A stretch of DNA of 64,000 bases, from contig NZ_JAHHIR010000035.1 of assembly GCF_018678075.1 (NCBI RefSeq), positions 1 to 64,000 on the forward strand, written 5' to 3'. The notes below the pieces were generated by a model. The model was not told where the DNA came from, did no database searches, and saw only the letters and a program-made list of their open reading frames with translations. Both the position numbers and the translations under genes were made by a program. Origin of the DNA: Epibacterium ulvae (GTDB lineage: Bacteria; Pseudomonadota; Alphaproteobacteria; Rhodobacterales; Rhodobacteraceae). Numbering within the stretch: the stretch's first letter is position 1; each line of letters opens with the position of its first letter. Positions 4,738 to 57,294 of the stretch are shown in pieces.

Positions 4738-5487
4738 TCAGCCGGCAAGGTACCCGCCGTCAACGACCAGCGTCGTTCCGGTGACGTAGCTGGCCATATC
4801 TGAGGCAAGAAAAGTAGCGGGGCCGACGATCTCTTCAGGCTCTCCGAAACGGCGCATCGGGATACGGGCCAGAAAGGCCTCGCGCCGTTCGGGCACGTTT
4901 CGTGTGGCCTCGGTCATTGAAGTCTTCAGGGTGCCGGGTGCGATGGCGTTGACGCGCACCCCATCGCAAGCAAGTTCGGCGGCGAGATTTTGGGTCAGCA
5001 TCTTGATCGCGGCTTTCGACGTCGAATAGGAAATCGAGGTTGCGGTTGATACGAAAGACGCGATCGAGGCCATATTGATGATGTTGCCCTGGCTGCGCCG
5101 CAGGGCAGGCACAAAGGCCAAGGTCACATTCAATGCACCGTTCAGATTAACGTCGATGCCGAGTTTCCAGCTTTCGCGCACATCGTCTGCATCGATGCTG
5201 TTGCGGGGGCATACCCCTGCATTATTTAGCAAAAGGTCGATATCACCCTTGGTTGCGCCGACTTCCTTTGCAAGCGCGGTGCAAGCATCGGCATCGGTAA
5301 CATCAAGCGCGTAGGCCACCGCACTGCCGCCGGCCTCGATGATGGCGTCCGCAGTTGCCTGCGCACTCGGCAGATCAAGGTCTGTGCTGATGATGGTTGC
5401 ACCCTCGGCTGCTAAACCCCTGGCAAGCGTCGCGCCAACGCCTTGGCCCGCGCCGGTTATCAGGGCGAGTTTTCCCTTTAGCCTCAT
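4738..5487 (-). CDS. Short-chain dehydrogenase/reductase (SDR)
   Basis: A 249-residue classical SDR with the cofactor motif TGAGQGVG near the N-terminus, NNAG around residue 90, catalytic Ser and YSTSK, and the C-terminal signature YVTGTTLVVDGGY. It would oxidise or reduce an alcohol/ketone with NAD(P)(H); an Asp at the end of beta-2 (STDLD) suggests NAD(H). I chose the ATG at 5487 because GGGAGG lies seven bases upstream; a longer frame adds ten residues. It stands alone between nthA and the first iclR gene, with its own copy of the shared palindrome upstream. The substrate is probably an intermediate of the nitrile-derived compound. Confidence 0.9.
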   Translation of the reverse strand: MRLKGKLALITGAGQGVGATLARGLAAEGATIISTDLDLPSAQATADAIIEAGGSAVAYALDVTDADACTALAKEVGATKGDIDLLLNNAGVCPRNSIDADDVRESWKLGIDVNLNGALNVTLAFVPALRRSQGNIINMASIASFVSTATSISYSTSKAAIKMLTQNLAAELACDGVRVNAIAPGTLKTSMTEATRNVPERREAFLARIPMRRFGEPEEIVGPATFLASDMASYVTGTTLVVDGGYLAG

Positions 5488-5576: not shown

Positions 5577-6380
5577 TTAAGTGAATGCGGGTGCCTTCGG
5601 ATTAAACCCCATCTGCTGCGATGTTTGACGTGTATTGGCCAGCAATTGCTGGACTTGCGGCCAGTCTGCCGCGCGTTTCAGTTGGGTCTCTGTGCCGACA
5701 AGCGTGACAACCGCTTGTATCTGGCCCACGTGGTCGAAGATCGGCGCGCCGACAGCAACGACGCCAGGCACTGGCGCTTTCTCAATTGCCGCAAACCCTT
5801 GCTGGCGGACATCCGCCAACTGCGCTTGGGTCAGTGGTTTCACGTCACCGACACGTTTTTCAGCAAAGCCTTTTGATTTCTCAAATTTCAACAAGTCCTG
5901 AATGATGTCGGGCGGCATGTGGGCTGCAAAAACATGCCCCGTTGTCGTTGCCGTGACCGAAAATACCGTGCCAACACGGGTGTTCATATGCAACTGCCCC
6001 TGACCTTCCGACACCTTGATAACCGTTGGCCCAAACGCACCCCAAATCGACAAAAGCACCGTCATGCCGGTTTCTTCGCGCAGGGCTTCTGCGGCATCGC
6101 TGAACAACTGTATGGAATCAAAATTGCGCATCCGTACGATCCCAAGGTCTAAGGCGCGCGGACCGATGCGGTAGCGCCCGGCTTGCCCGTCCTTTTCGAT
6201 AATTCCCAGCTTTCGGTAGCTCAGCAGATAGGCATGCGCCTGTGCAGGCGCTACGCCCGCCGCCGCCGCAATGTCTTTCAGCATCATCGGTTCGCTACGT
6301 TCGGCCAAAGCCTGTAGCAGCTTTGTGCCAACCTCAATTGACTGGACGCCGCGGCCTTCACCTTTGGGTGCTTTTGCCAT
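5577..6380 (-). CDS. IclR-family transcriptional regulator (first of two)
   Basis: A 267-residue regulator with an N-terminal winged helix (about residues 10-75, containing VQSIEVGTKLLQALAE and the MLKDIAAAAGVAPAQAHAYL recognition region) and a C-terminal GAF-like effector domain ending in VVTLVGTE. The family controls aromatic, amide and other catabolic genes as ligand-responsive repressors or activators. It is closely similar in layout to its neighbour at 6419, so the pair looks like a duplication or sub-specialised set. It probably reads the palindromes found upstream of nthA, the SDR gene, the amidase and the ABC binding protein; this is inference from location. Confidence 0.9.
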   Translation of the reverse strand: MAKAPKGEGRGVQSIEVGTKLLQALAERSEPMMLKDIAAAAGVAPAQAHAYLLSYRKLGIIEKDGQAGRYRIGPRALDLGIVRMRNFDSIQLFSDAAEALREETGMTVLLSIWGAFGPTVIKVSEGQGQLHMNTRVGTVFSVTATTTGHVFAAHMPPDIIQDLLKFEKSKGFAEKRVGDVKPLTQAQLADVRQQGFAAIEKAPVPGVVAVGAPIFDHVGQIQAVVTLVGTETQLKRAADWPQVQQLLANTRQTSQQMGFNPKAPAFT

Positions 6381-7423: not shown

Positions 7424-8848
7424 ATGCTTGACAAATTCCAAACAAGGCAATCGCAGCCATTGCACGCGCTTGAGCTTCATCAGGTTGCAAAGATGTTGCG
7501 TGCTGGGTCTGTGACGTCGGCAGCCGTTACCGATAGCCTGCTGTACCGCATTACCGCGACCTATCCACATCTCAACGCCTTTATCACGCTTTGCGCTGAC
7601 GATGCGCGCGCGCAGGCCCGCGAGGCTGACAAAGTGCTAGCTCAGGGCCGCGTGCTCGGGCCGCTGCATGGCGTGCCTGTGGCGCTGAAAGACATCTTTG
7701 ATGTGGTGGGCGTGGCAACCACTGCGGCCATGCCGTCACGTCAAACCGCTAAAGCTGCACAAGACGCTACAATCGTGAAACGCCTGAAAGCCGCTGGGGC
7801 GGTTACTTTGGGTAAGCTAAACATGTGCGAAGGCGTTTATGCCGAGCATGTCGACCCGTACGGGCCCCCGGTTAATCCGTGGGATGACACGTTATGGCCC
7901 GGCGCGTCCTCCAGCGGGGGCGGTGTCGCCGTTGCAGCCGACCTTTGTTACAGCGCTGTGGCCAGTGACACGGGTGGGTCAATCCGTTTGCCAACCGCAG
8001 CGAATGGCGTGACTGGCCTGAAACCGACATGGGGGCGGGTCAGCCGCCATGGCGTGTTTGAACTGGCCGCCACGCTGGATCACATCGGCCCGATAGCCCG
8101 CAGCGCGATCGACTGCGGTATGATGATGGGTGTGATGGCGGGGCTGGATCAGGATGATCCGACCACGTCGGCCCATCCTGTTCCTGAATTTCCGTCTGCT
8201 CCGCAAGATGGCGATCTGCGGGGTCTTCGCATCGGGTTGGACGACGCATGGCTGCGCAAAGATGTCGATCCGCAAACCACAGCGCGGGTACTTGATGCGC
8301 TGACGACGCTGCAGTCCTTGGGCGCCGAGGTGGTCGAGATCACCTTTCCCGACCCCACTCAAATCGCATTTGACTGGTTTAATGTCTGTGCTCCGCAAAC
8401 GGCACGGGCACATCAGGCAACATTCCCGTCAAATCGCGACGCCTATGGCCCAGCCTTCGCGCAATTGCTTGATCTGGGAGGTGGCATGTCAGCCATTGAC
8501 TACCAAGACGCTCTGCTGCGCCGCGAAGCTTTTGCCGGAAAGGTCCAGTCGCTGTTTCGCAATTGTGACCTTATCATCTGCCCCGCCCTTGGCATCGAAG
8601 TGCCGACCATTGAACGCATGTCGCAGGTGGACGACGATATGATCGTCGCCCTGCATCAGTTCACCTGTTCGTTCACCATGTCGCGCAACCCCACGATCAC
8701 CATGCCGGCGGGCTGGCGCGACAGCGGGGACGGACCGCCCATCGCCGTGCAACTGGTCGCCCCACATTTTCACGAAGACACGCTTGTGCGTGCCGGTGCT
8801 GCGTTTCAACGCGCCACCAACTGGCACACGCGCCACCCTTTGCCGTAA
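7424..8848 (+). CDS. Amidase (amidase-signature family)
   Basis: A 474-residue amidase-signature hydrolase. The Ser-cisSer-Lys machinery is visible: Lys89 in GVPVALKD, the serines in GASSSGGG (162-164) and the nucleophile Ser186 in SDTGGSIRLP. It would hydrolyse an amide to carboxylate and ammonia in the cytoplasm. Together with nitrile hydratase this completes the two-step nitrile to acid route. The start is preceded by GGGAGG. It is the first gene of a plus-strand unit, 46 bases ahead of the flavoprotein; the gap contains a short CGCGCCA/TGGCGCG hairpin. GatA is excluded by the catabolic context and the absence of GatB/C. Confidence 0.92.
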   Translation: MLDKFQTRQSQPLHALELHQVAKMLRAGSVTSAAVTDSLLYRITATYPHLNAFITLCADDARAQAREADKVLAQGRVLGPLHGVPVALKDIFDVVGVATTAAMPSRQTAKAAQDATIVKRLKAAGAVTLGKLNMCEGVYAEHVDPYGPPVNPWDDTLWPGASSSGGGVAVAADLCYSAVASDTGGSIRLPTAANGVTGLKPTWGRVSRHGVFELAATLDHIGPIARSAIDCGMMMGVMAGLDQDDPTTSAHPVPEFPSAPQDGDLRGLRIGLDDAWLRKDVDPQTTARVLDALTTLQSLGAEVVEITFPDPTQIAFDWFNVCAPQTARAHQATFPSNRDAYGPAFAQLLDLGGGMSAIDYQDALLRREAFAGKVQSLFRNCDLIICPALGIEVPTIERMSQVDDDMIVALHQFTCSFTMSRNPTITMPAGWRDSGDGPPIAVQLVAPHFHEDTLVRAGAAFQRATNWHTRHPLP

Positions 8849-48272: not shown

Positions 48273-50024
48273 GTGTCCCCCTCCAGTCTTACTTTGTCTC
48301 GCCGTCTCTGTGACCTTTTGGGTCAGGTTTATCCCGAACATGATATCGAAGCGATCTCCGATCAGATCATCGACGCCTTCTGGCCGGCCGGAACGCACCG
48401 CCGCAAACAGGGGCGAAAGCCAGGCAACAACCTGTGGTCGGAAAAAGACAGCGTCTTGATCACCTATGGCAACTCGATTGTCGACAAGGCGCATAAACCT
48501 CTGGATGTGTTACATGATTTTCTGGAACGTCATCTGAGAGACGTGATTGGCGGCGTGCATATCCTGCCGTTTTTCCCGTTTACCTCGGACGATGGCTTTG
48601 CGGTGACGGACTATCGCGCGGTGAACCCGCAGCTTGGCGATTGGCCGGATATTCAGCGGATCGCGGATGATTTTCCGTTGATGTCGGATCTGGTCCTGAA
48701 CCACATGTCGAGCCAAAGCCCCTGGTTCAACAACTACTTACAAGGCAAGTCGCCCCATGATCAGTTCTTTTTTGAGGCCTCACCCGATGATGATCTGAGC
48801 GAGGTTATCCGCCCCCGCACCACACCTTTGCTGCGCGAGGTTGAGACGAGTTCAGGCCCGCGCCATGTCTGGTGCACCTTTAGCCACGACCAGATCGATC
48901 TGAATTTTGCCAATCCCGAAGTGCTGCTTGAGATGTTGCGGATCATCCGCATGCATATCGACAATGGCGTGCGGATCCTGCGGTTGGATGCGGTGGCGTT
49001 TTTGTGGAAAGAGGTTGGAAGTCCCAGCATCCACCTGTCGCAGACCCATGCGATTGTGCAGTTGATGCGCCTGCTGTGTGATTACACGCAGGAAACCGTT
49101 GTTTTGCTGACCGAAACCAATGTGCCACGGACCGAAAACCTCAGCTATTTTGGCAATCGCAACGAGGCGCATGCGGTCTATAACTTCCCGCTGCCGCCTC
49201 TGATCCTGCATGCGATGCAATCGGGGTCGGTCGAATATTTGCTGCGCTGGCAGTCCGCGATGCCACCCGCACAATTGGGCTGCGCCTATCTGAACTTTAC
49301 CGCCAGCCATGACGGTATTGGCATGCGCCCCGCCGAAGGGGTGCTGCCACCGGAAGAAAAAGAGCGCATGATCGACACCGTGCGTACCCTTGGCGGATTG
49401 GTGTCCATGCGGGCGCTGCCAGGCGGCAGTGAGGAACCCTATGAGCTGAACTGTAGTTTTTTTGAGGCGATGGGCGCGACGTTCAAAGGCGAAGACGCCT
49501 ATCATCTGGCGCGCTTTATCTCATCGCAAACCATTGTGATGTCGCTCGAAGGCATTCCGGCGTTTTACATCCATTCCTTGCTGGCGACGCCAAATGACCA
49601 CGACGCGGTGGAACGACGCGGCATGAACAGGGCGATCAACCGTCATCGCTGGGATTACGCAGAGCTGAATGCGCGTTTGGCGGATCCGGGGTCGAACCAG
49701 TCGCTTGTTCTGGCTGAATTGTCCCGCCGTCTGCGCATCCGCCGTGAACAGCCTGCGTTCCACCCCAATGCGACCCAGTTTACCCTTCGTTTGGATGACC
49801 GGGTCTTTGGTCTGTGGCGGCAAAGTCTGGACCGGGATCAGTCGATCTTTGCCATGCACAATGTCTCGGATGAAACCGTTGGGATCAGCCCGATGGCGGT
49901 CAATCTGATCGAAGGGGATGACTGGATGGATCTGCTCACCGGTGAGGTGACTTTCCCCACCGGCAAAGATATCGTCTTGGCACCCTACCAGTGCCGTTGG
50001 ATCACGAACCGGAAGGCGAGTTGA
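48273..50024 (+). CDS. GH13_18 glycoside phosphorylase, probable glucosylglycerate phosphorylase
   Basis: A 583-residue alpha-amylase-fold enzyme of the sucrose phosphorylase group. Visible catalytic elements are the nucleophile Asp in RILRLDAVAFLWKE, the acid/base Glu in VVLLTETNVP and the transition-state Asp in NFTASHDGIGMRPAEG. It begins with GTG. Close group members phosphorolyse sucrose, glucosylglycerol or glucosylglycerate. The convergent neighbours encode a glucosyl-3-phosphoglycerate synthase-like transferase and an MPGP-type phosphatase, so glucosylglycerate is the most likely substrate, releasing glucose-1-phosphate and glycerate. Sucrose phosphorylase remains an alternative that sequence alone cannot exclude. 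Confidence 0.83.
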   Translation: MSPSSLTLSRRLCDLLGQVYPEHDIEAISDQIIDAFWPAGTHRRKQGRKPGNNLWSEKDSVLITYGNSIVDKAHKPLDVLHDFLERHLRDVIGGVHILPFFPFTSDDGFAVTDYRAVNPQLGDWPDIQRIADDFPLMSDLVLNHMSSQSPWFNNYLQGKSPHDQFFFEASPDDDLSEVIRPRTTPLLREVETSSGPRHVWCTFSHDQIDLNFANPEVLLEMLRIIRMHIDNGVRILRLDAVAFLWKEVGSPSIHLSQTHAIVQLMRLLCDYTQETVVLLTETNVPRTENLSYFGNRNEAHAVYNFPLPPLILHAMQSGSVEYLLRWQSAMPPAQLGCAYLNFTASHDGIGMRPAEGVLPPEEKERMIDTVRTLGGLVSMRALPGGSEEPYELNCSFFEAMGATFKGEDAYHLARFISSQTIVMSLEGIPAFYIHSLLATPNDHDAVERRGMNRAINRHRWDYAELNARLADPGSNQSLVLAELSRRLRIRREQPAFHPNATQFTLRLDDRVFGLWRQSLDRDQSIFAMHNVSDETVGISPMAVNLIEGDDWMDLLTGEVTFPTGKDIVLAPYQCRWITNRKAS

Positions 50025-51237
50025 ACTCAGACAGGTCGTCTGACACGGCCCGGTGCATATCTGGCAGAAAGCTCATGTCTGCCGAATGCACCCGGTTCCA
50101 CGTCGGGATAAAGGGTGTTTCATGGGGGTTCTCCAGGAACACCTGACCGGCAACCAAGATATTTTCGGCAAACAGCTCGATCGACTTTTCTTCTTTATGC
50201 CTGTCGAGCTCTAGACCGTTCATCTTGGCGTCGTTGTAATAGCCTTCCAAAAGATCCAGCGCCGAGCGGTAATAGGTCGCTTTCAGGGTGCGGAAGATAT
50301 TGGGCGTAAACACGGTGCCATCGGCCGCCAGTTTGCGGAACAAAGCTTTGCAGATGTCCACTGACATCCGGCTCAGGCCTTGGTTGGCGTCCTCGGGTGA
50401 CAGGTCCTGATGTTTGTGGTCATAGGCATCCGAGATTTCGACTTGGCAGACTGATTTTGGTGCCAGATTGCGCCAGGCCTCTGACAGGACGCCAATTTCG
50501 AGCCCCCAATCGGAGGGGATACGCAGATCCGGCAAAATCGGGGTGCGCATGGCAAATTCACCGGACAGCGGATAGCGGAAGCTGCGCAGGTAATCGATGT
50601 AGTCGCGATCCCCGATCACCCGTTTCAATGCGATCAACAGCGGGCTGACCAACAGGCGCGTCACCCGACCGTTCAGCTTGCCATCGCCAACGCGCGGGTA
50701 AAACCCTTTGGACATCTGGTAGGGAAATGCTGGATTCACAACAGGATAGATCAGACGCGCCAGCATTTCGCGTTCATAGGTTACGATGTCACAATCGTGG
50801 ATCGCCATGATTGAACTGTCAGCGCAGGCAATCAGATAACCGATGCAGGACCAGACATTTTTGCCTTTGCCGGGTTCTTGCGGTCCAAGGCCCAATTCCG
50901 CCAGTCGGTCTTGCAAGGCCAACATGCGCGGGCTGTCATTCCAGATCACCACATGTTCTTGCGGCAGCCGGGCAAAGAAGGCGCGCGCCTTGCGGTATTG
51001 TTCCTCGTCTGCGCGGTCCAGGCCAATGATGATCCGGTGCAGATAGGGGACTTGCGCCAGTTCATCCAGAATGTTCGAAAGCGCGGGCCCTTCCAGTTCT
51101 GAATAAAGGCAGGGCAAGATCAGCGATACTTTGCGTGACTGCGCAATGACCGAGATTTCATGGTCCAAACTCCCCAATGGGCGCTGCCGCAGATTATGCA
51201 GGGTGGTGATGTTGCCGTTTTGGTGAAAGTCAGCCAT
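50002..51237 (-). CDS. Glycosyltransferase, probable glucosyl-3-phosphoglycerate synthase
   Basis: A 411-residue GT-A-fold transferase without signal peptide. Features are VSLILPCLYSELEGPALSNI (nucleotide-binding start), GKGKNVWSCIGYLIA, the metal-binding IHDCDIVTYEREMLA, and a C-terminal YDHKHQDLSPEDANQGLSRM. This layout matches GpgS/MpgS-type enzymes that transfer a sugar from an NDP donor to 3-phosphoglycerate. It overlaps the HAD phosphatase gene by eight bases, forming a two-gene synthesis unit, and its end overlaps that of the convergent phosphorylase by 23 bases. It probably makes the phosphorylated precursor of the compatible solute glucosylglycerate; a mannosyl donor is the alternative. 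Confidence 0.8.
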   Translation of the reverse strand: MADFHQNGNITTLHNLRQRPLGSLDHEISVIAQSRKVSLILPCLYSELEGPALSNILDELAQVPYLHRIIIGLDRADEEQYRKARAFFARLPQEHVVIWNDSPRMLALQDRLAELGLGPQEPGKGKNVWSCIGYLIACADSSIMAIHDCDIVTYEREMLARLIYPVVNPAFPYQMSKGFYPRVGDGKLNGRVTRLLVSPLLIALKRVIGDRDYIDYLRSFRYPLSGEFAMRTPILPDLRIPSDWGLEIGVLSEAWRNLAPKSVCQVEISDAYDHKHQDLSPEDANQGLSRMSVDICKALFRKLAADGTVFTPNIFRTLKATYYRSALDLLEGYYNDAKMNGLELDRHKEEKSIELFAENILVAGQVFLENPHETPFIPTWNRVHSADMSFLPDMHRAVSDDLSEFNSPSGS

Positions 51238-52018
51238 GTGCGGTTGTGCCTTTGGTCAAGTTCAGGTCGTTCAGAAGTGTGAGGGTTGCAGAGTTCCAGC
51301 CCTTGGGGCCGTGCTCTGTCGTGCGGATAAGGTTTGATTGTGTATCAAGCTGCGGCATTGGCGGGGCCGATGGGTTTGCGACCAGCACGCCGTGATCAGC
51401 AGCGGCCAGCATTTCCATATCATTGGGGGCATCGCCAAGGGCGATGGTGGTGTCGGGCGCCAATTGCGCGACAACTTCGGCCATGGCATCGGCCTTGGTG
51501 CGACCAAAAGAGAGCGCCAGAAAACGTCCGCCTTGTCGGGCGTGAATGCCCAGTTCAGCGGCCGCCGCCAAGAAAAGTTGGAGCTCTTCGTCCGATCCAC
51601 GCCACAGTCCGGGTTCGCTGAAGCAACGTTGGCGGGCGTTGTGGGCATCTGGCAATGCCAGACCGGTCACATCAGCCACATCCTGATCGGTCATGTCGCC
51701 AAATCCATCAAAGCCCGCAGGCAGTGATGTGACGAGGTTCCGCAAGCGGTCATAGGCTGAGGTATCAAACGCGCCGCTTTCGCTGGCCCAGATGACACCA
51801 GCGCCGTTTTCCACAATAGCGGGCCATCGGTTGAGACCCATTTCAGATTGAAGTTTCTGGATTTCCACGGCGGTTTTGCTGCTGGCCAGAACGACACCTG
51901 CGCCACAGGTGTTCAGGGCATGCAGCGCGGGTTGTGCGGCCTCCCAGCGATATGTCTGGTGATCCAAAAGGGTGCCGTCGAGGTCTGAAAAAACCAACAG
52001 GGGAAGTGCGCTCGTCAT
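51230..52018 (-). CDS. HAD-IIB phosphatase, glucosyl/mannosyl-3-phosphoglycerate phosphatase type
   Basis: A roughly 262-residue HAD hydrolase: motif I LLVFSDLDGTLLDHQTY, motif II VVLASSKTA, and motifs III/IV in TIALGDAPNDMEMLAAAD, with the cap pattern of mannosyl-3-phosphoglycerate phosphatases. It would dephosphorylate the product of the adjacent synthase to give free glucosylglycerate. The start is uncertain: the ATG at 52018 gives the usual N-terminus, while an ATG at 52054 would add 12 residues and no ribosome site is strong. It is the first gene of the minus-strand pair. Confidence 0.82.
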   Translation of the reverse strand: MTSALPLLVFSDLDGTLLDHQTYRWEAAQPALHALNTCGAGVVLASSKTAVEIQKLQSEMGLNRWPAIVENGAGVIWASESGAFDTSAYDRLRNLVTSLPAGFDGFGDMTDQDVADVTGLALPDAHNARQRCFSEPGLWRGSDEELQLFLAAAAELGIHARQGGRFLALSFGRTKADAMAEVVAQLAPDTTIALGDAPNDMEMLAAADHGVLVANPSAPPMPQLDTQSNLIRTTEHGPKGWNSATLTLLNDLNLTKGTTAHG

Positions 52019-52310
52019 AACGCTACCGTAACAAGGCGTGAGAAGAGTGACCATCCTTGAGGTAGGAAAGCGACATCGAAAGTTATATTGGTACGCTTAT
52101 TTTTTAAGCACATGAGGGGGGTCTTCCAAATGCATGGATCGAATTTGCCCAGCTATGATGAAGGCTCCGCAACAAATTTCAGTCAAAAAGCGGCGCTAAC
52201 CTGTGCACTTGCAGTGAATTTTCGCGGAAAATTCGCGCATTTCGATTTTTTGGGTGGTTTTTACCTATCTCAATTTTGACAGAATCCACTTTAAATCGGC
52301 TACTGGATCT
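52019..52310. other. Intergenic region with divergent promoters
   Basis: No gene is supported. The region must hold promoters for the phosphatase-synthase pair (minus) and for the guanidine operon (plus); AT-rich tracts at 52095-52110 and 52225-52300 are candidate sites, but no clean -35/-10 pair stands out. Confidence 0.5.
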
Positions 52311-52426
52311 GCAGGGTGCTTAGGGTTCCGTTGTCGCAAATACGACAAGTCTGGTCCGAGAAGTGCCACCAACACGGCAAACTCCGTGTTGGCACACGGC
52401 GGGCCAAAATCCCGGGAGAGTACTGC
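52311..52426 (+). ncRNA. Guanidine-I riboswitch (ykkC class)
   Basis: Conserved ykkC blocks appear in order: TTAGGGTTCCG (52320-52330), CTGGTCCGAGA (52351-52361), CACACGGCGGG (52393-52403) and AAAATCCCGGGAGAG (52406-52420). The helices also form: P1 by GCAGGGTGCT with AGTACTGC (419-426), an inner hairpin TTGTCG/CGACAA at 52331-52348, and a long helix GTGCCA..ACACGG with CCGTGT..GGCAC at 52363-52395. It lies about 90 bases upstream of the binding-protein start and should switch the downstream operon on when guanidine binds. Bases TGCGCTGG (52424-52431) can instead pair with CCAGCGG (52461-52467), a plausible expression platform. Confidence 0.94.
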
Positions 52427-52518
52427 GCTGGTTTTAACCGCGCCCTATCTCTTTGTTCTGCCAGCGGCCCGAAAACCATCAAAAATAAAATTGGCGGGAC
52501 GCGACAACGGGGAAAGTC

Positions 52519-53589
52519 ATGACCAAGAAGACTAAGTTTCTGTCAGCAATCGCATTGGCATTGGGGGTACTTGCGGGTGCCGTCTCACCACTGGCCGCCG
52601 AAGAAAAAACTGAATTCAAACTTGCATGGTCAATCTATGTTGGCTGGATGCCTTGGGGCTATCTGGAAGATAGCGGCATCATGGGTAAATGGGCCGACAA
52701 ATACGGCATCGATGTCGAGATCGTGCAGATCAACGACTATGTGGAATCGATCAACCAATATACCGCAGGTGCGTTTGATGGCGTCTCAGCCACCAATATG
52801 GACACATTGTCGATCCCATCGGGCGGCGGCGTTGATACCACTGCGCTGATCATTGGCGACTATTCCAACGGCAACGACGCTGTGATCCTCAAAGGTGAAG
52901 GCACGCTGGAAGATCTCAAAGGCGCGTCCGTCAACCTGGTCGAACTGTCTGTGTCGCATTACCTGCTGGCGCGCGGTCTGGACACTGTTGGGTTGAAGGA
53001 ATCCGATCTGGATAGCGTCATCAACACCTCTGATGCGGATATGATCGCTGCCTATGCTACCTCTGACGTGAAATCCGTTGTGACCTGGAACCCACTGGTG
53101 TCCGAGATCACAGGCTCAAACCCGGATGCAACCGTTCTGTTCGACAGCTCCAAGATCCCAGGCGAAATCCTCGACTTGATGGTGGTGAACACCGAAACAC
53201 TGGCCGACAACCCCGCCTTTGGTAAGGCTGTTGCCGGTGCTTGGTATGAAGTCATGGCGCTGATGGCAGCAGGCGACGAAGCCACGTTGACCGCCATGGC
53301 CGAGGCCTCGGGCACCGATCTGGCAGGATACAAAGCGCAGCTGGCCGCGACTGAGATGTTCTTTGACCCTGCCGATGCCGTTGCACAGACGCAATCCTCA
53401 GCACTGCCAACCACGATGACCAATGTCGCCGAATTCCTCTTTGACAAAGGGATCCTGGGCGAGGGCGCTCCCAGCGCAGATTTCGTCGGTGTTGAATACC
53501 CAGATGGTTCGATCAGCGGTGATGCGGGCAATGTGAAGTTCCGTTTCGACGCGACGTATATGCAGATGGCTGCCGACGGCGCGCTCTGA
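52519..53589 (+). CDS. Periplasmic binding protein of a NitT/Tau-type ABC importer, probably guanidine
   Basis: A 356-residue protein with a Sec signal peptide (FLSAIALALGVLAGAVSPLAA, cleavage near residue 28) and the SsuA/NMT1-like fold of taurine/nitrate-type binding proteins: FKLAWSIYVGWMPWGYLEDS, YTAGAFDGVSATNMDTLSIP, VNLVELSVSHYLLARGL. Acidic residues common in the pocket would suit a cation. It is the first gene under the guanidine-I riboswitch and heads the operon leading to a GdmH-like hydrolase, so guanidine is the likely ligand by context. A GGGGAAAG ribosome site precedes the start. A hairpin follows the stop. Confidence 0.85.
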   Translation: MTKKTKFLSAIALALGVLAGAVSPLAAEEKTEFKLAWSIYVGWMPWGYLEDSGIMGKWADKYGIDVEIVQINDYVESINQYTAGAFDGVSATNMDTLSIPSGGGVDTTALIIGDYSNGNDAVILKGEGTLEDLKGASVNLVELSVSHYLLARGLDTVGLKESDLDSVINTSDADMIAAYATSDVKSVVTWNPLVSEITGSNPDATVLFDSSKIPGEILDLMVVNTETLADNPAFGKAVAGAWYEVMALMAAGDEATLTAMAEASGTDLAGYKAQLAATEMFFDPADAVAQTQSSALPTTMTNVAEFLFDKGILGEGAPSADFVGVEYPDGSISGDAGNVKFRFDATYMQMAADGAL

Positions 53590-53598
53590 TCCTCGCGT

Positions 53599-53626
53599 GA
53601 GGGCCGCGAACGGCGCGGCCTTCTTC
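53599..53626 (+). promoter_or_regulatory. Intercistronic hairpin after the guanidine binding-protein gene
   Basis: GGCCGCG and CGCGGCC form a stable stem followed by TTCTT, ten bases after the stop. It likely protects or attenuates the transcript so that binding protein exceeds permease and ATPase. Confidence 0.65.
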
Positions 53627-53659
53627 CATCACACGGAACATCAACGCGGGGTTTTCACT

Positions 53660-54472
53660 ATGCGACTCATGAACCACTTCCCGGGCCGACCCGGGGCGGT
53701 AGCGCTTGCTATGTTGCCATTTGTACTGGTCCTGGCGGCCTATGCCATCGGGTCCGACATTCGACTGACCGCCAATCCGGCCGACAAGCTGTTGCCGGCG
53801 CCGGGCACCATCTGGGACACTGCCATCCGGCTGTTTACCGAACCTGACCGACGCAGCCAGGAGATCCTGCTGTGGAACGACACATTTGCCAGCCTTGCGC
53901 GGCTTTTGGGGGGCGTGGCCATCTCGGCTTTGATTGCCATGATCATTGGCATGGCCATTGGCATTCTACCCTATGCCCGCAGCGGCCTGTCCGGTTTTGT
54001 TGCGGTTCTGTCCATGGTGCCGCCACTGGCGCTGCTGCCGATCCTGTTCATCGTCTTTGGCCTTGGGGAGGTGTCCAAAGTCGTGTTGATCGTGATTGGT
54101 ATCACGCCCTTTATGACGCGGGATCTGTCGCAGCGGGTGCTAGACATTCCGCGTGAACAATTCGTCAAAGCGCAGACATTGGGGGCCTCGACCTGGGTTG
54201 TGGCGCTGAATGTTGTGCTGCCGCAGCTTTTGCCGCGCTTGATCTCAAACGTGCGCCTGTCGTTGGGATCGGCCTGGCTGTTCCTGATCGCCGCCGAAGC
54301 GGTGGCGTCCAACGTGGGCCTTGGCTACCGCATCTTCCTGGTGCGCCGCTATCTGGCGATGGATGTGATCCTCACCTATGTCATCTGGATCACGCTTCTG
54401 GCTTTTGTTGTCGACTGGTTGCTGAAAACCATTTCGCGCAAGGCATTCCCATGGCTGGAGGCAGGCCTATGA
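53660..54472 (+). CDS. ABC importer permease (NitT/Tau type)
   Basis: A 270-residue inner-membrane permease with about six hydrophobic helices and the family's cytoplasmic loop (DIPREQFVKAQTLGASTWVV). It forms the channel for the riboswitch-controlled importer. I chose the ATG at 53660, since residues before it are off-family and lie under the upstream hairpin. Its stop overlaps the ATPase start (ATGA), so the two are translationally coupled. Confidence 0.88.
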   Translation: MRLMNHFPGRPGAVALAMLPFVLVLAAYAIGSDIRLTANPADKLLPAPGTIWDTAIRLFTEPDRRSQEILLWNDTFASLARLLGGVAISALIAMIIGMAIGILPYARSGLSGFVAVLSMVPPLALLPILFIVFGLGEVSKVVLIVIGITPFMTRDLSQRVLDIPREQFVKAQTLGASTWVVALNVVLPQLLPRLISNVRLSLGSAWLFLIAAEAVASNVGLGYRIFLVRRYLAMDVILTYVIWITLLAFVVDWLLKTISRKAFPWLEAGL

Positions 54473-55242
54473 GTTTCGTCGAAGTATCAAACGTCTGGCA
54501 GGCTTATGGCGATCGTTCGATCCTGGAGCGCGTCAATGTCGCCATCGAAGAGGGTGAATTTATCTCCATCGTTGGCGCGTCGGGCTGTGGCAAATCCACA
54601 TTCCTGCGGATGCTGCTCGCGGAGGAGACGCCGACGAAAGGCACCATTCGCATTGACGGCGGTGAGCCCGCTGTTGAACCAAACCCAGAACGCGGTGTTG
54701 TGTTCCAGCGCTATTCGGTTTTCCCGCATCTGACGGTGCGTGAAAACTTGGTTGCCGGCGAAGGGTTTGCCACCTTTTGGGGGCGTCTGTTTGGCGTGCA
54801 GCGCCGCGCAGCAGTAGAGCGCGCGGATGAGATGCTGGAGCGTATCGGCCTGAACCACGTGGCCGATCAATTCCCGGCGTCGCTGTCGGGCGGCATGCAG
54901 CAACGTCTGGCCATCGGACAGGCGCTGACCGCGAAACCACGCGTCTTGTTGTTGGATGAACCCTTTGGCGCGCTCGATCCGGGCACGCGGCTGCGGATGC
55001 ATGAATTCCTGCAGGAGCTGCGCGCCGAGACCAATATGACCGTCTTTATGGTCACCCATGATCTTGAAGAAGGCTTCAAGCTCGGGGATCGCTGTCTGGT
55101 ATTTGACAAGCCCCGCTGGGACCCCCACGACCCGGGTCGCTATGGGGCGACCATTACCTACGACTTTGATGCCCGTAACAACGGCATCCCGTTTCAAACC
55201 ACCAAGGAGACTGAAAATGTTGTTCACGCAGCGACTGCATAA
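54469..55242 (+). CDS. ABC importer ATPase (SsuB/TauB type)
   Basis: A 257-residue ATPase with Walker A GASGCGKST, Q-loop VVFQRYSVFPHLTV, signature LSGGMQQRLAIGQAL, Walker B VLLLDEPFGALDPG and H-loop VTHDLEEGF. Compared with nitrate/taurine ATPases it carries a C-terminal tail (DFDARNNGIPFQTTKE). It energises the importer whose permease gene it overlaps. Its last 26 bases overlap the start of the hydrolase gene at 55217, tying transport and hydrolysis together in one transcript. Confidence 0.9.
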   Translation: MSFVEVSNVWQAYGDRSILERVNVAIEEGEFISIVGASGCGKSTFLRMLLAEETPTKGTIRIDGGEPAVEPNPERGVVFQRYSVFPHLTVRENLVAGEGFATFWGRLFGVQRRAAVERADEMLERIGLNHVADQFPASLSGGMQQRLAIGQALTAKPRVLLLDEPFGALDPGTRLRMHEFLQELRAETNMTVFMVTHDLEEGFKLGDRCLVFDKPRWDPHDPGRYGATITYDFDARNNGIPFQTTKETENVVHAATA

Positions 55243-56491
55243 CCGATCGCACCATCCTGTCGATCAGCGGGCGCGATTGGACCGGCGCGAAAAACGCGCC
55301 CACCACCCGGATCTGACTAAGCTCGCGGGTTGGAAATCTATGCAGAAAGAAGCGGACCTGCCCGAAGGCCGCCACGAAGAAGAGCGCCGTTGGGCGCTGC
55401 GCATGGGCCTCACAGGGGCGGACACGATCGAAGATAAATCGATCCCGACCTTTGCCCGTGGCGAGCTGCCGCATTTCGCCGGCATCAACACCTTCCTCAA
55501 GGCGCCGTATGCCGAGGACGTGCTGGACGTTGCAAATTATGACGCAACCGTTCTGGGTATCCCGTTTGACGGTGGCACTACCTATCGTCCGGGCACGCGC
55601 TTTGGCCCGCAAGGCGTGCGCAAGATCTCGGCACTTTATACCCCCTACAACTACGAGCTGGGCGTCGATCTGCGTGAGCAGATGACCATGTGTGACGCGG
55701 GCGATGTCTTTACCATCCCTGCCAATATCGAAAAGAGCTTTGACCAGATCAGCCGTGGCGTCAGCCATGTTTTCTCGTCCGGCTCCCTGCCGATTATGAT
55801 CGGTGGCGACCACTCCATCGGTTTCCCTTGTGTGCGCGGCATTGCAGAGTGCACGTCCAAACGTATCGGCATCGTGCACTTTGACCGCCACGCCGACATT
55901 CAGGAAAAAGACCTGGATGAACGTATGCACACCACACCCTGGTTCCACTCCACCAACCTGCCCAATGTTCCGGCCACCAATCTGGTGCAGATCGGCATCG
56001 GCGGCTGGCAGGTCCCACGCGAAGCGGTCAAGGTCGCCCGCGAGCGCAACACCAACATCATCACCATGGGTGACGTTGAGAAGATGGGCATCGCCAAGAC
56101 CATCGAAATGGCGCTGGAGATGGCGTGGAAAGATGTCGACATGGTCTATATGTCCTTTGACATCGACAGCATCGACTGTGGGTTCGTACCGGGCACAGGC
56201 TGGCCTGAACCGGGCGGGTTCCTGCCGCGCGAAGCACTGGCGCTGGCCTCGGGCATTGCCGCCGAAGGTATCTGTGGCATGGAACTGGTGGAAGTCTCGC
56301 CACCCTATGACACCTCGGATATTACCGCATTGATGGGCACCCGCGTGATCGTGGATGTTCTGGGTGCGATGGTCTCTAACGGTAAGCTTGGCGCGCACAA
56401 GCGTCACATCGACAAGCCGGTCTCGCTGCCACACGGCGAATTCTCGGGTCGTCGTTGGGCCAATGCTGAACCACATAAGATAGGTGAGTGA
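55217..56491 (+). CDS. gdmH: Probable nickel-dependent guanidine hydrolase (GdmH-like ureohydrolase)
   Basis: A 424-residue arginase/agmatinase-superfamily enzyme predicted to hydrolyse guanidine to urea and ammonia. The two-metal motifs are GGDHSIG (196-202), HFDRHAD (221-227) and SFDIDSIDC (about 313-321), followed by GFVPGTGWPEPGG. Agmatinases read HFDAH and usually SxDIDxxDP with GTGTP. The HFDRH variant, the C for P change and the Trp resemble guanidine hydrolases as I recall them. The N-terminus is about 100 residues longer than agmatinase. AAGGAG lies seven bases before the chosen ATG. Guanidine-I riboswitch control and the adjacent importer strongly support the call; agmatinase is the conservative alternative. 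Confidence 0.85.
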   Translation: MLFTQRLHNRSHHPVDQRARLDRREKRAHHPDLTKLAGWKSMQKEADLPEGRHEEERRWALRMGLTGADTIEDKSIPTFARGELPHFAGINTFLKAPYAEDVLDVANYDATVLGIPFDGGTTYRPGTRFGPQGVRKISALYTPYNYELGVDLREQMTMCDAGDVFTIPANIEKSFDQISRGVSHVFSSGSLPIMIGGDHSIGFPCVRGIAECTSKRIGIVHFDRHADIQEKDLDERMHTTPWFHSTNLPNVPATNLVQIGIGGWQVPREAVKVARERNTNIITMGDVEKMGIAKTIEMALEMAWKDVDMVYMSFDIDSIDCGFVPGTGWPEPGGFLPREALALASGIAAEGICGMELVEVSPPYDTSDITALMGTRVIVDVLGAMVSNGKLGAHKRHIDKPVSLPHGEFSGRRWANAEPHKIGE

Positions 56492-56958
56492 TGCCGCACG
56501 ATCATCCCCATGACCACAGCCACGGTCACCACCATCATCACGATCACGCCCCTCACGGGGCGGGTCACAACCATGCGCACGCTGACCACCTGCATTCGCA
56601 CATGCATGCCGAAGATGAGGCCGCAGACCTTCAGGTTCTGGCGACACAGTTCATCGACGGGTTTTTGCAGGCCGCAGACAAGACCAGCTATCTGAAACTG
56701 GCCGGGGTGCCGTTTGAACGTCCTGCCAAGGACGGCTCAAAAGCATTGAAGCTGATTGATGTTGAGTTGAAAACCGACTGGCAGGTTGGCACGGCCTCAC
56801 CGTCCTTTGGCTCCCGCGAGCTCAGCTATCTGCCGTTTCCCGGTGAGATGGTTCAAGAACGCACCAATATGTCGCTGATCTATGTGTCGATGGATGAGAA
56901 ATCCACGTTCGACATCCGCGACTTTTTGAAACAACGTAAAATGGAAATCGAAACATGA
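56491..56958 (+). CDS. Histidine-rich protein of the guanidine operon, candidate nickel chaperone
   Basis: A 155-residue protein whose first 45 residues are dominated by histidine with Asp/Gly (HDHPHDHSHGHHHHHDH, then GHNHAHADHLHSHMHAED). The remaining 110 residues form a compact soluble domain I do not recognise (LATQFIDGFLQAADKTSYLK, SFGSRELSYLPFPGEM, TFDIRDFLKQRKMEIE). No cysteine, signal peptide or GTPase motif is seen, so it is neither HypA nor HypB. The ATG shares its first base with the hydrolase stop (TGATG). Its position and His-rich tail suggest metal storage or delivery to the hydrolase; this is inference. Confidence 0.8.
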   Translation: MPHDHPHDHSHGHHHHHDHAPHGAGHNHAHADHLHSHMHAEDEAADLQVLATQFIDGFLQAADKTSYLKLAGVPFERPAKDGSKALKLIDVELKTDWQVGTASPSFGSRELSYLPFPGEMVQERTNMSLIYVSMDEKSTFDIRDFLKQRKMEIET

Positions 56959-57113
56959 AACGCATTGCTTTGACTGTTGCAGCACTCGCCAGCAGCACTC
57001 CTGTCTGGGCCCATGATGGTGCACATCTTCACCCGCATGGCACCGAACTGACACCTGTTCTGGCGGTTCTTGCTGTTCTGGCCTCTGCCTATGTCTTCTT
57101 TCGCGCCCGCTAA
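56955..57113 (+). CDS. 52-residue His-containing membrane protein
   Basis: A very small protein starting at the ATGA overlap with the His-rich gene. It has a signal-like N-terminus (MKRIALTVAALASSTPVWAH), a short DGAHLHPHGTE segment and a C-terminal hydrophobic helix (LTPVLAVLAVLASAYVFF) ending in basic residues. The layout recalls the ends of HupE/UreJ-type nickel permeases without their middle. If translated it would present a periplasmic His patch anchored in the inner membrane. It closes the guanidine operon. Function is unknown; a role in metal binding is a guess from composition and position. Confidence 0.65.
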   Translation: MKRIALTVAALASSTPVWAHDGAHLHPHGTELTPVLAVLAVLASAYVFFRAR

Positions 57114-57294
57114 GCGGATGCGTTAAAGACGGCAAGACCCAAAAGCGCTTCCGGTTTTTCAAACTGGGAGCGTAACACATTATGGAATTTCTATATTAAG
57201 TACATCTTCACCGTGTTCTATCAGGGTACGCGCCATCAAATCATCCCCTAGGCCAAATCTATGGGGTGCTTCATGCGGCAGGGGAGAGCCTTTG

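Follow-up and report, generated by a model that had tools for sequence, protein, structure and literature searches.

The 64,000-nucleotide window analysed here, from contig NZ_JAHHIR010000035.1 of Epibacterium ulvae, carries a compact plus-strand operon for the use of guanidine: a guanidine-I riboswitch aptamer, the binding protein, permease and ATPase of an ATP-binding cassette (ABC) importer, a hydrolase that homology places among the guanidinases (GdmH), and two small proteins that we call P5 and P6 (Table 1). The genes follow one another on a single strand in the order given by the initial annotation, and from the permease onward they overlap as it had said, by 4 nucleotides (nt) between permease and ATPase, 26 nt between ATPase and hydrolase, 1 nt between hydrolase and P5, and 4 nt between P5 and P6; the 1 nt overlap is counted from the ATG at 56491, and starting instead at the GTG upstream, at 56488, would make it 4. 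The operon had been taken to end at 57113, which is probably right, because a hairpin follows P6 shortly downstream. The host genome assembly comprises 4.09 Mb in 107 contigs and is 97% complete. Our main observation concerns P5, a His-rich protein that accompanies the guanidinase in all alphaproteobacterial guanidinase genomes sampled, and that may represent a new way of supplying nickel to this enzyme.

Table 1. Features of the guanidine operon (positions are those of the window)
Feature	Position	Strand	Evidence
Guanidine-I (ykkC) riboswitch aptamer	52309-52420	+	RF00442, 85.0 bits, E 9.5e-14, full length
Possible terminator-like hairpin over the aptamer 3' end, weak candidate for an expression platform	52415-52452	+	Centroid fold of 52395-52470
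Substrate-binding protein, probable guanidine ABC importer	52519-53589	+	TIGR03427, 517.3 bits, cut-off 333.9
Strong hairpin between binding-protein and permease genes	53590-53659	+	z -4.08
ABC permease	53660-54472	+	PF00528, 9.2e-20
ABC ATPase	54469-55242	+	PF00005, 8.4e-35
Guanidine hydrolase (GdmH, guanidinase) by homology	55217-56491	+	PDB matches, identity
P5, His-rich protein of 155 amino acids, proposed nickel-delivery factor	56491-56958	+	Linkage, composition
P6, 52 amino acids, proposed envelope nickel-handling accessory	56955-57113	+	P5 overlap, relatives in urease operons
Hairpin past the last gene, probable operon end	57145-57173	+	Fold of 57105-57180, z -3.03

The tie between P5 and guanidinase holds at every depth of sampling. 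Guanidinase was found in 44 of the 295 genomes of the family sample and P5 in all 44; the two genes share a contig and a strand in 43 of them, separated by -41 to 610 nt, and a contig break divides them in the 44th. The class sample (337 genomes) contributed 10 more guanidinase genomes and the phylum sample (398 genomes), in which every guanidinase match belongs to Alphaproteobacteria, another three, with P5 directly after guanidinase in 13 of 13. In total, P5 is present in 57 of 57 alphaproteobacterial guanidinase genomes, downstream and on the same contig in 56, and its relatives could be traced down to 27% identity. A search in the other direction, with a P5 profile against 200 genomes of the phylum, found P5 in three, all with guanidinase, and the sole P5-like match without one (genome G216) is a broken, decayed C-terminal fragment; the 12 kilobases (kb) examined there contain no guanidinase. 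A scan of named genomes returned 177 P5 relatives; among the best 80 of these, which were kept (L110-L189), guanidinase stands upstream of P5 in every case. The genome samples, the named loci and the fetched regions overlap in part (one contig of genome G184, for instance, is exactly as long as that of L110), so these counts are not fully independent.

The identity of the hydrolase is supported from several sides. The two motifs reported for it, HFDRHAD and DCGFVPGTGWPEPGG, are both present in its translation, and among PDB chains it scores 527.6 bits against 7esr/7oi1 and 526.2 bits against 9fek, the next being proclavaminate amidinohydrolase at 170.7 bits. It is 63.2% identical to the Synechocystis GdmH (7esr/7oi1) and 62.6% identical to the guanidinase 9fek, with 30-35% identity to 1gq6, 3nio and 3nip (the comparison enzymes being proclavaminate amidinohydrolase, guanidinobutyrase and guanidinopropionase) and to six paralogues from the same genome, taken from its eight other matches. 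The initial annotation had named clustering with agmatinases as the outcome that would speak against a guanidinase, and this did not occur: in a FastTree phylogeny of 28 sequences the three other solved ureohydrolases and the six paralogues group together in a clade of their own (support 0.998) that excludes the guanidinases. PMC11410670 gives Thr, His and Trp at positions 105, 222 and 313 of the Nitrospira inopinata enzyme as the residues that define a guanidinase. With its numbering taken as the chain numbering minus 2, since Trp313 is chain residue 315, the corresponding residues in the window hydrolase are T122, H238 and W329. Because of the 63% identity and these diagnostic residues we call the enzyme a guanidinase, which would be nickel-dependent like its characterised relatives. 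No guanidinase was found in viral contigs with patterns derived from the window protein.

Upstream, the covariance model RF00442 aligns over positions 1-107 of 107 at 85.0 bits, where the gathering score is 63, in keeping with the ykkC aptamer that had been read from the sequence and proposed for this search; with the hydrolase at 527.6 versus 170.7 bits, RNA and protein agree on guanidine, as had been claimed. A second model, built from the window RNA and 10 other loci and run on 80 further P5 loci, found guanidine-I RNA in 78, one of these matches being weak (L186, 29.4 bits, E 0.0014). It found none in L167 and L171; in L171, where the ABC genes start at the very edge of the stretch, the RNA may lie beyond it. 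Among 16 divergent guanidinase regions (L093-L108), RF00442 reached its gathering score in 10 and the 11-sequence model added L099, and in five neither model found a riboswitch. A terminator placed right after the aptamer as its expression platform is a weak candidate: the hairpin in question appears in the centroid fold, but it has a z of 0.00 against shuffled sequences and was missed by a terminator scan.

Together with an importer and urease, these elements support a pathway that would use guanidine as a nitrogen source by import and then hydrolysis, as the initial annotation had read it. Urease genes, which could act on the released urea, are present in the host genome and in 57 of 57 P5/guanidinase genomes. 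The binding protein is a full-length member of TIGR03427, "putative urea ABC transporter substrate-binding protein" (517.3 versus 333.9 bits), and family and linkage make guanidine its probable substrate. The guess that generic annotation would say agmatinase plus a nitrate/taurine transporter was right in part: two annotated relatives carry "agmatinase family protein", ABC transporter parts and "hypothetical protein", but the binding protein is TIGR03427 and not merely taurine- or nitrate-like.

Import and hydrolysis of guanidine have been published for Synechocystis (PMC12186494, PMC8390497), so that the pathway is of a known kind and the accessory pair P5/P6, for which the initial annotation had offered no interpretation, is the new part. 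The operon of Synechocystis sp. PCC 6803 (Sll1077, GhaA, GhaB and an ABC importer) shares with ours the riboswitch class, the importer, a homologous hydrolase and the predicted route to urea and ammonia, but no hypA- or hypB-like genes were found beside the hydrolase in the window, where P5 and P6 stand in their place. The comammox organism N. inopinata likewise has a guanidine-I riboswitch and a homologous hydrolase (9fek) in an operon without nickel chaperone genes, but with an APC permease instead of the ABC importer, and no dedicated nickel protein is reported for it (PMC11410670). The metformin hydrolase operon of Aminobacter and Pseudomonas, with hypA, hypB, two hydrolase genes and hupE (PMC11399263), follows the same logic of a nickel ureohydrolase, chaperones and the membrane nickel protein HupE; it differs in having HypA/HypB and two hydrolase subunits, and P5 matches neither family. 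Just 3' of guanidinase and P5 in two of the divergent regions, L107 and L108, lies the gene of a urea amidolyase-associated protein (TIGR03424, 221 and 217 bits, missing the cut-off of 284.7). Such proteins are linked to carboxyguanidine deiminase, and pieces of both guanidine pathways may thus share one locus. A further arrangement lies on a plasmid of Rubrobacter indicoceani (Actinomycetota; L190), where a guanidine-I-like RNA (5795-5905) precedes guanidinase and the genes of a sodium:solute symporter and of urease come after it, with no P5, HypA or HypB found nearby.

Neither Pfam nor NCBIfam gave a match for P5 itself, and none of the PDB sequences is a significant relative; of six divergent relatives searched against Pfam, five gave no match and one gave two weak matches below cut-off. 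All 19 His of the window protein fall within residues 1-39, leaving residues 40-155 free of His, and the protein contains no Cys. An in-frame ATG-P-H-D is present in 80 of the 80 named P5 loci, mostly at most 33 nt from the guanidinase stop, and about 7 to 28 His precede the core. Among the 16 divergent P5s, inspected by eye, MPHD occurs in 8, closely preceded in L097 and L098 by a different possible start, and MH occurs in 7, at a plausible start codon or close to one. The core is under purifying selection, with a median ratio of non-synonymous to synonymous substitution rates (dN/dS) of 0.18 over 816 pairs. The AlphaFold model (mean pLDDT 72.9) predicts confident helices and strands for the core, whose ten-residue blocks score 82-96 except for residues 101-120 (50 and 57), and falls below 50 in the tail; the low-confidence residues 101-120 include many of the most conserved ones and would suit a docking loop. 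A Foldseek search with this model against PDB found no significant match; the best was to a COMM-domain complex (E 0.12, TM 0.22).

Removal of Met before Pro is usual. If it occurs here, P5 would start with P-H-D, a close parallel to the MHE motif of HypA, whose nickel ligands are the N-terminal amine, His2 and neighbouring residues (PMC7055735). HypA has a His near the free amine and then an acidic residue, in the form MHE; P5 may have a like site in the form MPHD or MHx. The likeness stops there, since the window P5 has no Cys, and so neither of the two CXXC zinc motifs of HypA, and does not match Pfam (PF01155). Nor does P5 match a GTPase domain in Pfam or NCBIfam, as HypB or UreG would. 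With UreE it shares a His-rich tail on an accessory of a nickel enzyme (the host's own UreE has one), but the tail is at the opposite end and P5 has no family match.

By its genomic context, P5 occupies a place in which nickel chaperones would be expected. Guanidinase operons often contain hypA and hypB (PMC8390497), and GhaAB is required for activation of GdmH (PMC11271267). A search around guanidinase in 96 alphaproteobacterial and 4 actinobacterial loci, 100 in all, for which a single HypA and a single HypB sequence served as queries, showed neither beside the enzyme in any locus; the single HypB match, in L095, reads as the ureG of an adjoining urease cluster. Genome-wide, HypA above cut-off was not found in 41 of the 57 P5 genomes, the host genome included, and HypB was searched beside guanidinase only. 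In L095 (1-4200), where the urease cluster adjoins the guanidinase operon, the Rfam model 5_ureB_sRNA (RF02514) matches the strand opposite to that of the urease gene at 104.7 bits, a score that conservation of the coding sequence may explain.

By eye, P6 begins with what looks like a signal segment, followed by AHDGAHLHPHG and a single hydrophobic segment. Its gene shows the 4 nt overlap with the P5 stop in 58 of the 80 named loci, and 53 of these 58 P6s have A-x-A-H at the likely signal-peptidase site followed by 3-5 His. A profile built solely from guanidinase-linked P6 was run on 46 regions (45 urease, one hyp) and found relatives in 18, all of them between ureA and ureB on the same strand (41 regions hold both genes) and one of them in the host's own urease operon. 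The same profile gave 0 matches in 23 control loci not chosen for P6-like genes (L002-L008 and L093-L108, of which 16 are guanidinase loci); 17 loci that did give matches (L202-L218) were chosen for DUF6732 and are no control. P6 resembles HupE/UreJ in having His right after the signal segment, and a full HupE (PF04955, 169 bits) directly after P5 occupies the place of P6 in L104. It differs in its length of 52 residues with one hydrophobic segment, and PF04955 gave no match at a limit of E 10, under filters that drop most weak ones. Context ties P6 to nickel enzymes, and any role we give it is a guess. The case for DUF6732 (PF20506, cut-off 27 bits) as its family is weak and inconsistent: one of three P6s scanned reached 28.3 bits, the window P6 and another gave no match, and most DUF6732 matches lie elsewhere in the genomes concerned, with two weak ones beside urease and a hyp gene. 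In the hyp hydrogenase maturation region L220, on the minus strand at about 13.2 kb of the given strand (the frame starts at 4780 in the reverse complement), a P6-like AHSGHDE follows a signal-like segment, detected by pattern and not by the profile. The host urease operon (L196) also contains a lipoprotein-like gene between ureB and ureC (8039-8452) and a 72-amino-acid gene between ureC and ureE (5965-6183), with no NCBIfam match.

Given the linkage and presence patterns, and with the chemistry, topology and contacts of P5 and P6 inferred, we think that the operon probably works as follows. Judging from its RNA family, the leader would bind guanidine and switch on one transcript; the ABC transporter would take up guanidine; the nickel-dependent hydrolase would convert it to urea and ammonia; and urease, a second nickel enzyme, would free the remaining nitrogen. 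P5 would be the hydrolase's own nickel-delivery factor, replacing the HypA/HypB-type pair GhaA/GhaB. Its His-rich tail would hold nickel, its N-terminal M-P-H-D, probably P-H-D after loss of Met, could work like the M-H-E of HypA, and its metal-free core might dock on the hydrolase via the conserved, predicted-flexible residues 100-120. P6 would face the periplasm with its mature N-terminal His and collect or pass nickel at the membrane, as an envelope nickel-handling accessory similar to HupE. More tentatively, and somewhat short of an even chance in our view, P5 could define a new class of nickel insertase, small and NTPase-free, with a disordered His tail, a (M)PHD site independent of the HypA MHE, and guanidinase as its one client, and P6 could belong to a family of His-capped envelope proteins with one helix, which either arose from HupE by reduction or parallel it, and which would serve guanidinase, urease and perhaps hydrogenase in Alphaproteobacteria.

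Several observations weigh against nickel delivery by P5 and P6. The His tail of P5 is not universal: the first 45 residues hold four His in L097, three in L098 and one in L100, which retains MPHD. The L096 protein starts with neither MPHD nor MH, and the invariant residues of a broad P5 alignment include no His or Cys. In MPHD, unlike MHE, Pro precedes His, and the parallel assumes removal of Met. Of the 57 P5 genomes, 16 do have HypA above cut-off (17 at E 0.001), its gene being either on a different contig or no nearer than 45 kb. Four actinobacterial guanidinase loci showed neither P5 nor HypA/HypB, and no chaperone is known for the comammox guanidinases (PMC11410670); a dedicated factor may therefore not always be needed. 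For metformin hydrolase, PMC11271267 reports that in the hands of one group co-expressing the chaperones made no difference to activity in extracts, yet a knockout did not grow on metformin. As for P6, its resemblance to HupE is limited to the N-terminal pattern, it was recognised by pattern in 60 of the 80 named loci and by eye in two more, so that its presence is patchy, its profile had no match in the 16 divergent guanidinase loci, and it evolves fast (median dN/dS 0.69 over 264 pairs).

This rapid evolution and patchy presence would fit a P6 that is not a nickel protein at all, and is instead a quickly changing small membrane protein for the handling of urea or ammonium, or an unimportant one; urea and ammonia are, after all, as common to urease and guanidinase as nickel is. 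We regard this as unlikely but as an alternative of some weight, because the A-x-A-H motif with its 3-5 His is largely kept, HupE takes the position after P5 in L104, and a similar small protein occurs, by pattern, in the hydrogenase region L220. It would affect P6 alone.

For P5, purifying selection on a core without metal ligands, encoded by a gene that overlaps the hydrolase gene, could also point to a structural or assembly partner of the hydrolase, similar to a small subunit, with the His tail secondary. This seems improbable to us: the N. inopinata guanidinase, which resembles the Synechocystis enzyme, is described in PMC11410670 as a homohexamer that was made and crystallised alone, and assembly alone would not need an ATG-P-H-D kept in all 80 loci. 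About as improbable is a P5 that stores or buffers nickel, to protect the cell or to have the metal at hand close to the enzyme, without delivering it. The very variable length of the His tail would suit such a store, but the one-to-one tie to guanidinase and a conserved core free of His and Cys in the window P5 suggest a partner-specific role, and homologues nearly without the tail persist, as in L100. That the operon has been misread, its enzyme being an agmatinase or one for some other guanidino compound, is scarcely credible: a generic "agmatinase family" annotation and a TIGR01230 agmatinase equivalog cut-off that the hydrolase missed only narrowly (169.6 versus 174.3 bits) are set against 62-63% identity to guanidinases versus 30-35% to other ureohydrolases, an upstream guanidine-I aptamer and the diagnostic Thr, His and Trp, and we dropped this reading on the PDB scores, the identities and the missed cut-off.

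Two features near these genes deserve mention. The hairpin between the binding-protein and permease genes is strong, the fold of 53585-53665 reaching -35.4 kcal/mol with 0 of 200 shuffled sequences as good, and it perhaps lifts expression of the binding protein above that of the rest of the operon. Just upstream of the operon, 48273-52054 carries sucrose-phosphorylase-like, glucosyl-3-phosphoglycerate synthase-like and mannosyl-3-phosphoglycerate phosphatase-like genes, all with NCBIfam matches below their equivalog cut-offs, and is probably a compatible-solute locus of the glucosylglycerate type.

Having found nickel delivery by P5 to be the reading we favour, we can ask what it would offer. 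We found no description of P5 or of P6 in the literature searched, the main GdmH paper (Funck et al. 2022) lying outside the search made for P5, and P5 is a "hypothetical protein" in the annotated records examined. P6 draws attention to a small membrane protein, apparently undescribed so far, in the urease operons of Rhodobacterales. P5 is a concrete candidate that makes the question of how guanidinase obtains its nickel testable, and it could improve recombinant guanidinase.

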